Shown in pieces: positions 1,321 through 26,873 of a stretch of 64,000 nucleotides of DNA. The stretch is from Chitinophaga pinensis (lineage in GTDB: Bacteria; Bacteroidota; Bacteroidia; UKL13-3): NCBI GenBank assembly GCA_945860865.1, contig CAMARW010000002.1:1-64000 (forward strand), read 5' to 3'. Within the stretch, counting starts at the first letter, position 1. Every line of letters starts with the position of its first letter. The position numbers were made by a program, and so were the translations under genes. The notes beneath the pieces are model-generated. The model was not told the DNA's origin. It saw only the letters and a program-made list of their open reading frames with translations, and searched no databases.

Positions 1321-4641
<3,321 letters not shown>

Positions 4642-21133: not shown

Positions 21134-21307
21134 TTGATTACTGCAATAATTTGCATTGGATTATTGGCAAACATGTCACAAGTTTTGGGTCAGGATAAGT
21201 TAAAAGAAAGCAGCAGCAAACATGGTTTAGGCGCGGGCTTTGCTACCTATAGAAATTTTAGCAATATAAATTTAACTGGAGAAACCGCTTTGTATGATAA
21301 GTTTTAA
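21134..21307 (+). pseudogene. Orphan signal-peptide ORF, probably a gene fragment
   Basis: Starting at TTG 21134, 57 codons encode a convincing signal peptide (LITAIICIGLLANMSQVLG) followed by QDKLKESSSKHGLGAGFATY and a short polar tail ending LYDKF. The only ATG (21173) falls inside the hydrophobic stretch. Such a peptide is what one expects from the first 60 codons of an outer-membrane or secreted protein whose remainder has been lost. It begins 8 bases after the PNGase F-like gene and ends about 60 bases before the left palindrome of the ATPase element. Confidence 0.5.
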
Positions 21308-21369: not shown

Positions 21370-21410
21370 TACTTGACAAATACGGAATCAGATTCCGTAT
21401 TTGTCAAGTA
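21370..21410. repeat. Left palindrome of the ATPase cassette
   Basis: A perfect 20-bp inverted repeat around a single A at 21390. The arms begin TACTTGACAAATACGGAATC. It lies 15 bases downstream of the ATPase stop codon (minus strand). It shares the core CAAATACGGAATC-A-GATTC... with the right palindrome, but the outer bases differ (TTGA/TCAA here, TTGT/ACAA there). Confidence 0.93.
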
Positions 21411-21425
21411 AATGTTTCTAGCGAA

Positions 21426-22586
21426 TTAGTTTTTAATGAACGCTATTTCTTTCCAATTTAAGATACTAATTTTATCTAAGGAAGCTGTTTTGCCTGTAAA
21501 AACCACGAATGCTTTTTTAACATTGGGATTAATTTTTTTCCAATAGTTTATACCCTTCACATAATCTGTGGTAAATGTGGCAGAAGTTTTTATTTCTATA
21601 GGCACCACTTGAGCAGATTGATCTAATAACACATCAATTTCGTTGCCGGTTCTATCTCGCCAATAAAACAAATTACTACGCTGACCATTGTTAAATCTGG
21701 CTTTTAACAGTTCTAAAATAATAAGGTTTTCAAACAAAGCTCCCCGCAAGGGATGCGTATTTACATGTGACTCTGTTTCTAGCTCTAACAAAGAGCAACA
21801 TAAACCTGTATCGTAAAAATACAGCTTGGGCATTTGCGTTAATCTTTTGCCTAAATTGTTATAAAAAGGCTGCAACCTAAAGGCAATAAAACTGGCTTCT
21901 AAAATGCCAAACCAACTCAATACCGTTTTTTGATCTACGCCAGTATCATTGCCAATAGAGGTATAATTAACTTCTTGTCCTACCCTAGAAGCACATACTT
22001 TTAAGAAGCGTTGAAACATGGCTAAATTGGTAATATTCTTTATTTGCCTCACATCTCTTTCTACATAGGTAAGCAAGTAATTGGGATAAAAATCTACGGG
22101 CTTTATTTTTCTATCATACAACCTGGGGTAGCCGCCATTTAAAATGAGTTTATTTAAACTTTGTGTGCCATGTTTACTGCTGGCTAATTCGGTAAAACTA
22201 AATGGCAACAAGTGTATAAAAGCAATTCTACCCGCTAATGTTTGCGAAATACTTTCCAATAAGAGTAAGTTTTGCGAACCTGTAATGATAAACAAACCTA
22301 CCTTATTGGGTTGATCATCTATTACGCCTTGCAAGTAAGATAAGAGCTGCGGCACACGTTGTATTTCATCAAATATGGCGCCCGTTTTGTACTGATCCAA
22401 AAAAGCACGAGGATCTTTGGTAACCAATAAAATATTATCTTGATTTTCGAAACTGACATAAGGCTTTTTAGGAAACAGCTCTTTGGCAAGCGTAGTTTTA
22501 CCCGATTGCCGCGGACCTAATAAACCCACTGCAGGAAACTTTTTAGCCAATTGCTTAATCTTAGTTGAGGCATCTCTTTGTATCAT
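21426..22586 (-). CDS. AAA ATPase with DUF4143 (PD-(D/E)XK-like) domain
   Basis: This 386-residue protein belongs to the AAA_14/DUF4143 family. Seen: Walker A GPRQSGKTT (residues 24-32), Walker B AIFDEIQ (70-76), sensor-like TGSQNL (102-107), and a C-terminal domain with NEIDVLL (about 315) and PIEIK (329-333), the D...ExK pattern of PD-(D/E)XK nuclease folds. The cellular role of this widespread family is not established. I start at ATG 22586: a TAnnTTTG element (TACCTTTG on the minus strand, 22591-22598) ends 5 bases before it, implying an almost leaderless transcript. The open frame continues upstream through the palindrome to 22640, which looks accidental. Palindromes flank both ends. Confidence 0.88.
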   Translation of the reverse strand: MIQRDASTKIKQLAKKFPAVGLLGPRQSGKTTLAKELFPKKPYVSFENQDNILLVTKDPRAFLDQYKTGAIFDEIQRVPQLLSYLQGVIDDQPNKVGLFIITGSQNLLLLESISQTLAGRIAFIHLLPFSFTELASSKHGTQSLNKLILNGGYPRLYDRKIKPVDFYPNYLLTYVERDVRQIKNITNLAMFQRFLKVCASRVGQEVNYTSIGNDTGVDQKTVLSWFGILEASFIAFRLQPFYNNLGKRLTQMPKLYFYDTGLCCSLLELETESHVNTHPLRGALFENLIILELLKARFNNGQRSNLFYWRDRTGNEIDVLLDQSAQVVPIEIKTSATFTTDYVKGINYWKKINPNVKKAFVVFTGKTASLDKISILNWKEIAFIKN

Positions 22587-22590
22587 AATA

Positions 22591-22598
22591 CAAAGGTA
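22591..22598 (-). promoter_or_regulatory. -7 promoter element of the ATPase gene
   Basis: On the minus strand TACCTTTG matches the Bacteroidota TAnnTTTG element. The ATG follows after 4 bases, so transcription should start at or next to the start codon. No -33 TTG lies at the usual distance; that region is taken up by the palindrome. Confidence 0.55.
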
Positions 22599-22605
22599 TT
22601 TATTT

Positions 22606-22640
22606 TTGTCAAATACGGAATCAGATTCCGTATTTGACAA
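22606..22640. repeat. Right palindrome of the ATPase cassette
   Basis: A perfect 17-bp inverted repeat around A22623, with arms beginning TTGTCAAATACGGAATC. It lies 20 bases upstream of the ATPase ATG, just upstream of the putative -7 element, so it could also serve as an operator for that gene. Confidence 0.93.
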
Positions 22641-26371: not shown

Positions 26372-26728
26372 CTACGATTGTGAGGAAAGGTTCCTTATCA
26401 TCGTATACAAGATTCTAGATATTTCTTCGTATTCTGTCTTTAATTCTGTATGAATACTTTGGGTAATTTCTTGTTGTGCAAACAGCAAATCTAGCAAGGC
26501 AGAACACTCGAATACGGAACCTCTGGCAATTGTAAAAAAATATTTCCTTTCCTTAATACTCGTTCTTCCGCTACCCTCCGCAATATTTAACATGATGCTT
26601 AAACTTGCCCTGCCAAATTGATTTTTTACATAGGCTGGAATATTTTCATATTGTTGAAGTACCGCCATTACTCGCCTTTGATTAGCAAAAGCCTTATTGT
26701 ACGCTATTAACTTCTCATAGGGGAACAT
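26372..26728 (-). CDS. Four-helix-bundle protein (S23/IVP family)
   Basis: This 118-residue all-helical protein belongs to the four-helix-bundle family first seen as ORFs in 23S rRNA intervening sequences. Family marks: the opening YEKLIAYNKAFANQRRVM, the conserved GRASLSIMLNIAEGSGR between helices 2 and 3, and FFTIARGSVFECSALLDLL. The full usual length is present. The molecular function is unknown. It is flanked on both sides by GAAAGAG-type repeats (26343-26363 and 26819-26873) and lies between a geneless stretch and ssrA. A second, broken member lies at 39060-39428. Confidence 0.9.
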   Translation of the reverse strand: MFPYEKLIAYNKAFANQRRVMAVLQQYENIPAYVKNQFGRASLSIMLNIAEGSGRTSIKERKYFFTIARGSVFECSALLDLLFAQQEITQSIHTELKTEYEEISRILYTMIRNLSSQS

Positions 26729-26818: not shown

Positions 26819-26873
26819 AAGAGGCGAGAGAAAGAGAAAGAGTAAATATCTCTTTCTCTTTCTCTCGCCTCTT
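26819..26873. repeat. Very long perfect hairpin of GAAAGAG sequence
   Basis: Arms of 24 bases (26819-26842 and 26850-26873) are perfectly complementary around the loop TAAATAT. One arm is almost pure purine. It lies 11 bases beyond the 3' end of tmRNA, where it may act as a terminator stem, although it lacks a strong T tract. Its left arm and loop repeat the sequence on the other side of the four-helix-bundle gene. Confidence 0.9.

Follow-up and report, generated by a model that had tools for sequence, protein, structure and literature searches.

Organization of the locus

The locus described here lies in the window, by which we mean the whole 64,000-nucleotide stretch of Chitinophaga pinensis DNA that was analyzed, and it consists of a single gene with one palindrome on either side. 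Its features, together with a gene remnant in the flank, are the following:

21146..21307, plus strand: remains of a beta-barrel gene, in the flank and outside the cassette; found near the cassette in the relatives G599, G601, and G608
21370..21410, no strand: 3′ (downstream) palindrome of 41 bp, with 20-bp arms and a central base, starting 15 nt past the stop codon
21426..22586, minus strand: AAA_14/DUF4143 gene (PADLOC PDC-S01) encoding 386 aa, with the ATG at 22584-22586 and the stop codon at 21426-21428
22591..22598, minus strand: Bacteroidota −7 promoter box TACCTTTG, with 4 nt between its end and the ATG
22606..22640, no strand: 5′ (upstream) palindrome of 35 bp, with 17-bp arms and a central base; the presumed self-recognition or operator site

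Since both lengths are odd, each palindrome is perfect except for the unpaired central base. The two share an identical 27-base core (21377-21403 in the 3′ and 22610-22636 in the 5′ palindrome), so that the preliminary description of the locus is borne out by the sequence in this point. Of the two spacings given there, the 15 bases after the stop codon agree with our count, whereas the distance before the ATG is 19 nt and not 20; the center of the 5′ palindrome lies about 37 nt upstream of the ATG. Among the 11 inverted repeats listed for the window (arms of at least 10 bases), only these two combine arms of at least 17 bases with a loop of 0 or 1, and a chance origin of the two palindromes is negligible. 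In the entire 2.59-Mb genome the 27-base core occurs at two sites only, both of them at this gene, and in close relatives the 3′ palindrome is found paired with a 5′ partner. The flanks had been described as decayed, which holds for at least one side, where pieces of the beta-barrel gene are left; the same gene is an open frame of 177 aa in the three relatives named above.

Elsewhere in the window, at 26819-26873, a GAGA-rich palindrome with 24-bp arms is located about 90 bp before a 118-aa ORF (26372-26728), which we take to encode a protein of the four-helix-bundle, 23S intervening-sequence type.

The encoded protein

The protein matched the Pfam families AAA_14 (PF13173; 94.2 bits at a cut-off of 27, E 8e-27) and DUF4143 (PF13635; 178.9 bits at a cut-off of 28.1, E 8.2e-53), and residues 1-367 matched the PADLOC profile for PDC-S01 (PDLC04790) at E 2.9e-98. 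Three parts can be distinguished:

Residues about 1-135: AAA+ ATPase, followed by a linker
Residues about 186-243: helix-turn-helix/winged helix
Residues about 268-386: PD-(D/E)XK-like C-terminal domain

The Walker A and B motifs and the C-terminal pattern of the PD-(D/E)XK type that had been noticed beforehand are present in the form of GPRQSGKT, FDE, and E...D...ExK. In the 127 intact proteins, taken from 132 loci, that were used for the analysis of conservation, residues of the ATPase and the nuclease are nearly invariant, with E286 and D318 conserved in 127 of 127 and E331 and K333 in 126 of 127 sequences. The ratio dN/dS was 0.01-0.03 in six close pairs, in two of which dS was saturated. 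Judged from these alignments, the protein is under very strong selection, in keeping with a functional gene.

A structure model of the protein (pLDDT 86.3, pTM 0.85) contains three helices in the helix-turn-helix stretch (residues 188-200, 208-215, and 219-231). Fold matches were obtained with the archaeal AAA+ proteins 2qen (Z 14.5, 244 aligned residues, rmsd 3.5, model residues 1-268) and 2fna (Z 13.7, 244 aligned residues, rmsd 3.8, model residues 1-267), and the match takes in the AAA core together with a C-terminal part of these chains that is presumably a winged helix. The nuclease region of the model had block pLDDT values of 77-96; fold matches extended mainly over residues 1-304, with the nuclease domain left uncovered, and a sequence search of solved structures returned nothing useful. 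A known transposase or recombinase domain is absent, given that Pfam returned only AAA_14 and DUF4143 and that NCBIfam and PHROGs gave no significant match.

Linkage of the palindrome to the gene

A pattern of the core, with up to 3 mismatches allowed, was scanned against 296 Bacteroidota genomes and matched in three of them. These are the window's own genome, G292, where a 51% identical homolog has the palindrome 17 nt ahead of its ATG and no 3′ copy, and G146, where an imperfect site does not adjoin a homolog. A looser pattern matched in 23 of 62 genomes of the family. Every exact match in the family coincides with the element; most carriers have two, and carriers with a single exact match have the element cut by a contig end or have lost one of the copies. 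Further matches comprise a one-mismatch solo palindrome after aspS in G642, from which the gene is absent, and five two-mismatch matches elsewhere in five family genomes. No exact palindrome was found away from the gene in the 296 phylum and 62 family genomes, 2.9 million viral contigs contained no exact copy of the 27-base core, and the 41-mer had no match in plasmid and phage collections.

The proposal that the gene and its palindromes form one linked cassette is upheld by these searches, as the core occurs only at the gene and the exact copies in the family track it. The search for scattered palindromes without a link to the gene, which covered the genome itself, the family, and viral, plasmid, and phage sequences, found no exact copy of that kind. 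Occurrence of the palindrome only at the gene is what is expected for self-control. At the aspS-pth site in the genus of G642, the gene is present in G638, G639, and G643, a remnant of part of an arm is left in G305, and nothing is found in G644; from this series, loss of the gene seems to be followed by decay of the palindrome site.

Palindromes at homologous genes

Protein searches yielded a match in 60 of 345 genomes of the class (at E 1e-60) and in 26 of 64 genomes of the family (at E 1e-80). Palindromes with a score of at least 10 were counted at 102 oriented loci, with all close relatives kept, in a stretch reaching from 85 nt upstream of the start to 10 nt downstream of it. A palindrome before the ATG was present in 70 of the 102 homologs, compared with 13 of 592 control windows. 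An inverted repeat in the 3′ flank was found in 27 of 102 and repeats on both sides in 25 of 102, where the 27 downstream repeats include some unrelated hairpins. More trustworthy is the count of matching copies: a 3′ copy matching the 5′ one lies no more than 160 nt downstream at 21 of the 58 loci with a 5′ score of at least 12 (alignment scores 21-43), whereas it is missing from the other 37 (alignment scores 12 or less). The class sample alone (71 loci) contained 46 palindromes on the 5′ side, 10 on the 3′ side, and 9 on both. The bracketing by a palindrome pair that was reported for the window thus does not extend to most homologs, whereas the 5′ palindrome alone is mostly present. In G605, the 3′ copy has been lost and the gene is intact.

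Significant upstream repeats of any kind were detected in 98 of 131 homologs, compared with 9 of 81 control ORFs, and were not found in the remaining 33. A phylum sample that was not picked by similarity to the window gene was made up of the hits from 41 genomes (39 non-own DUF4143 hits at E 1e-20) and five paralogs from the own genome; upstream repeats precede 27 of the 43 genes that were usable out of 44. Among homologs on plasmids, 9 of 17 are preceded by a repeat with p ≤ 0.02, examples being a palindrome with 18-bp arms in Moraxella and direct repeats in Sulfitobacter, and of the homologs on viral contigs at most 2 of 9 have an inverted repeat near the start.

The palindrome sequence varies between lineages and its arms stay complementary. 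For the 5′ arms of the window clade, 345 of 357 cells are paired, compared with a shuffle maximum of 333; the 3′-site counts and the 3′-5′ permutation for this clade include one false 3′ hairpin (L203).

Two of the plasmid loci may be mentioned for their surroundings. On the Wolbachia plasmid pWALBA2 (NZ_CP101659.1), a 49% identical homolog lies near an Rpn nuclease/putative transposase gene, and no significant palindrome was found before it. On plasmid pEMTOL02 of Emticicia oligotrophica, a homolog in opposite orientation is located between araA (arabinose isomerase) and the gene for L-ribulose-5-phosphate 4-epimerase, an arrangement that looks like an insertion into a sugar operon.

Predicted promoter architecture

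In 71 of 130 homologs, compared with 4 of 110 control ORFs, the motif TAnnTTTG, which we take to be the Bacteroidota −7 consensus, is followed by the ATG after 0-12 nt, and in 59 of 130 the spacing is exactly 4 nt. This distance would place the start of transcription at about the ATG, and the gene is probably leaderless, with the palindrome covering the promoter that the box predicts. Of the 58 elements whose 5′ palindrome is strong, 28 have the box in the spacer that separates palindrome from ATG, 9 show an overlap, and 21 do not have it. The phylum sample contained the box at only 3 of 43 genes, so that this layout is either restricted to the wider clade of the window or the starts chosen in that sample are wrong.

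The 3′ copy begins shortly past the stop codon, and T-rich DNA follows it in the window, which might also indicate ordinary RNA hairpins, namely a terminator at the 3′ end and, at the 5′ end, a hairpin that blocks read-through translation. However, the 5′ copy lies upstream of the inferred transcription start, and the 3′ copy both shares the sequence of the 5′ copy and coevolves with it, for which a terminator has no need. Together with the lack of a matching 3′ copy in the 37 strong-5′ homologs mentioned above, this makes RNA hairpins a very improbable explanation.

Coevolution of the palindrome with the helix-turn-helix

Divergence of the palindrome was compared with divergence of the protein in 69 non-redundant homologs (less than 85% identity, palindrome with at least 11 of 14 pairs), and the two distances were correlated (Mantel rho 0.42, p 0.0005). 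After the remaining three segments of the protein had been controlled for, the helix-turn-helix (residues 186-243) gave a partial r of 0.189 (p 0.002), whereas none of these other segments gave a significant partial correlation (p 0.098-0.228). A scan with 30-residue windows, in which whole-protein distance was held and 500 permutations set a floor of p 0.002, peaked at residues 191-220 with r 0.234 and a family-wise p of 0.002, equal to this floor. The peak was at the same residues, with r 0.286, in the 45 homologs of less than 60% identity, and 38 homologs with at least 13 of 14 pairs gave a broader signal over residues 151-230 with its peak at 181-210. Family-wise p values across the three data sets were 0.002, 0.002, and 0.004, at modest partial correlations of about 0.2-0.3. 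The part of the protein whose divergence tracks that of the palindrome is accordingly the helix-turn-helix, at residues about 191-230.

The preliminary description had considered that the protein might act on the palindrome. By virtue of the coevolution with its own helix-turn-helix, it very probably does so. A palindrome near a promoter is also the generic shape of an operator, and a regulator of the host could bind it in place of the encoded protein. However, the site is found only at this gene, the subfamilies have sequences of their own, and it is the gene's own helix-turn-helix that divergence tracks, which leaves a host regulator scarcely credible.

Paralogs and the L005 subfamily

Of the seven DUF4143 matches in the genome of the window, one falls below the cut-off. 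One paralog, L005, is 32% identical to the window protein and is bracketed by a palindrome pair of its own with unrelated sequence, consisting of a perfect 51-mer on the 3′ side and an imperfect palindrome on the 5′ side. Nine members of its subfamily within the genus have a common flank and therefore sit at one conserved locus. Among 17 members of at least 60% identity, the 5′ site is present in 14 and the 3′ site in 17 (at least 14 of 19 pairs), and some of these palindromes are perfect over up to 61 bp. Arm pairing amounted to 244 of 280 cells on the 5′ and 310 of 340 on the 3′ side, compared with shuffle maxima of 217 and 274, respectively, where the sites had been picked for pairing and the shuffle offsets this selection only partly. 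Ten variable pair columns in each of the 5′ and 3′ arms show alternative Watson-Crick pairs. The 5′ and 3′ copies of one element differ at 3.86 positions on average, compared with 10.07 for unmatched copies (permutation p 1e-4). For 11 of 14 elements, some 5′ copy from another element is at least as close as the element's own 3′ copy, which speaks for a shared constraint and is not proof of frequent conversion.

Three further paralogs of the own genome (L007, L008, and L010) have direct repeats of a motif before the ATG and not one palindrome, with a different sequence in each case.

Genomic sites and mobility

Within the family, the element occupies sites at aspS (in three genera), at the window locus (in G599 and G604 besides the window's own genome, and nearby in G601), at a locus shared by G458 and G605, and at others in G598, G600, and G613. 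Homologs of 65-71% identity with the same type of palindrome occur in one Olivibacter, one Chitinophagaceae, and one Cytophagales genome, and one homolog from another order (L209) has both palindromes. The tree of the element broadly follows that of aspS, with differences at, e.g., G613 and G600 and low support in places. Window-type copies number one per genome in the family listing and one in the own genome. As judged from these sites and trees, the gene relocates and transfers over long times.

Neither a clean empty site nor a target duplication was found at the loci examined, where neighborhoods vary. In blastn comparisons of relatives, alignments at first appeared to end at the palindromes or close to them. 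A boundary test compared 98 different-site pairs with 38 same-site pairs and found similar overhangs in the two sets, owing to the fast divergence of spacer DNA; some of the pairs counted as different are mislabeled, and G604, which was so labeled, has a T9SS neighbor in common with the window site. Similarity of the element exceeds that of aspS only among the window's genome, G599, and G601 (93.6 vs. 84.8, 88.2 vs. 80.7, and 90.5 vs. 80.2%), with the remaining five pairs within five points either way, and for this reason no claim of transfer is based on this comparison. The idea that the cassette moves or is copied as a unit is therefore supported as far as changes of site and homologs in other orders are concerned, and is not supported with regard to precise bounds, an empty site, or several copies.

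Two candidate events were rejected. The element in G601 is not a recent relocation, as it lies in the same neighborhood with other genes or DNA beside the palindrome. The G458/G605 locus is not empty in G404, as this intergenic site there holds a different DUF4143 gene (L163, 2003-3248, 375 aa), whose ATG is preceded by repeated GGGGAAT...ATTCCCC palindromes of its own. A separate observation was made in Olivibacter sitiensis (L204), where the cassette lies between two very similar small helix-turn-helix genes (2008-2337 and 3667-4044), as if insertion came with a duplication of the neighbor.

The different chromosomal sites within one family, the homologs in other orders, and the solo palindrome of G642 at a site where relatives carry the gene might imply a single-gene mobile element with the palindromes as its termini, which the encoded protein would cut so that the unit is excised or copied without a separate transposase. 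Copying through a hairpin would moreover explain arms that remain perfect despite the drift of their sequence. However, the single window-type copy per genome, an element tree close to that of aspS, and the missing target duplications and clean empty sites do not fit well with this explanation. The same is true for the L005 subfamily, which keeps both palindromes at one locus across a genus, for the frequent absence of the 3′ copy, and for the low dN/dS, and we consider such an element rather unlikely. That the PDC-S01 nuclease itself acts on the palindrome, perhaps in cruciform shape, and that the locus would thereby be a transposase-free self-moving element and not only encode a repressor, appears unlikely. 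If true, one of the most common "defense candidates" would be a new class of selfish cassette.

A probable self-recognizing, autoregulated cassette

The reading that fits these observations best is that of a self-recognizing, autoregulated single-gene cassette, to which we assign a probability of roughly 60%. The traits of an operator module are found together at this locus, as a symmetric site covers the gene's own inferred promoter, is unique to the gene, and coevolves with its DNA-binding domain. The symmetry of the site and the coevolution suggest that a symmetric dimer, or a higher oligomer, of the protein would bind the palindrome and that its own helix-turn-helix would make the contact. 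The 5′ palindrome would cover the core promoter of a leaderless gene, and the bound protein should for this reason repress its own transcription. The 3′ copy, where present, may provide a second binding site, and one assembly could then bridge both ends of the gene. Binding or hydrolysis of ATP might switch this assembly upon a trigger and release both expression and nuclease activity; given the PDC-S01 label, invading DNA would be the obvious candidate for such a trigger.

Several observations lean against this cassette reading, namely the homologs without an upstream repeat, the low counts of repeats at homologs on viral contigs and plasmids, the rarity of the box in the phylum sample, the mostly absent 3′ copy and its loss in G605, the modest correlations, and the nuclease domain outside the fold matches. 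Moreover, perfect palindromes of 35-61 bp are longer than the binding of a repressor usually needs, which counts against an operator. Alternatively, the palindromes might mark self versus non-self, with a nuclease that targets DNA relative to its own site, such as incoming DNA in which this site is present or lacking, and a pair that protects or licenses the home locus. The nearly invariant nuclease residues, the match to PDC-S01, and the co-resident paralogs with different palindromes are in line with this possibility. However, a foreign target was not seen, exact copies of the core being absent from the viral contigs and the 41-mer from the plasmid and phage collections, and a role in self-marking is considered decidedly unlikely.

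With autoregulation as the preferred reading, those PDC-S01 members that carry palindromes gain a predicted DNA ligand beside their own gene and a named segment that would read it, which makes the biochemistry of the family testable with one protein and one oligonucleotide. The tight self-regulation suggested here may partly explain why such genes might be without visible effect after transfer to another host. Matched palindromes would also help to annotate PDC-S01 members.

Comparison with known systems

Toxin-antitoxin operons and phage repressors are autoregulated genes with palindromic operators. The cassette resembles such loci in having a palindrome over the core promoter that is presumably bound by the locus's own protein. 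It differs from them in that one protein would here be regulator, ATPase, and nuclease, and in that many members have a palindrome without a mismatch over 35-61 bp, of which a further copy sometimes lies on the 3′ side.

In IS200/IS605 and REP/RAYT elements, a single gene has palindromes at both ends that are recognized by its product, and the single gene with palindromes at both ends is what the cassette has in common with them. Unlike these elements, it lacks an HUH/Y1 domain (according to Pfam), has one window-type copy per genome, and is not accompanied by scattered exact palindromes. The palindrome-associated transposable elements of Haloquadratum are small and without such a gene; likened by description only, they share with the cassette the link of a palindrome to a mobile unit.

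As far as the available parts of the respective texts go, PDC-S01 is the fourth most common defense across prokaryotes, counted 29,494 times in bacteria and 9,986 times in archaea, and consists of an ATPase joined to a domain of the PD-(D/E)XK superfamily, within a group of candidates, the PDCs, that remain unvalidated (PMC12988326). In the section of a rumen survey that could be accessed, it is the most frequent individual locus (PMC13356809), and an excerpt of a Thermus study, dealing with genes that plasmid DNA changed, tabulates an AAA_14/DUF4143 gene with a value of 6.6 (PMC4406477). Among the literature matches listed, which include these three sources, the text available contains no description of palindromes at DUF4143, COG1373, AAA_14, or PDC-S01 genes, and the same excerpts make no mention of autoregulation or a leaderless promoter for PDC-S01. 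The window gene belongs to the same protein family as this single-gene phage defense candidate, and what is new relative to the descriptions of PDC-S01 is a cis element that, by comparison of homologous sequences, coevolves with the protein.
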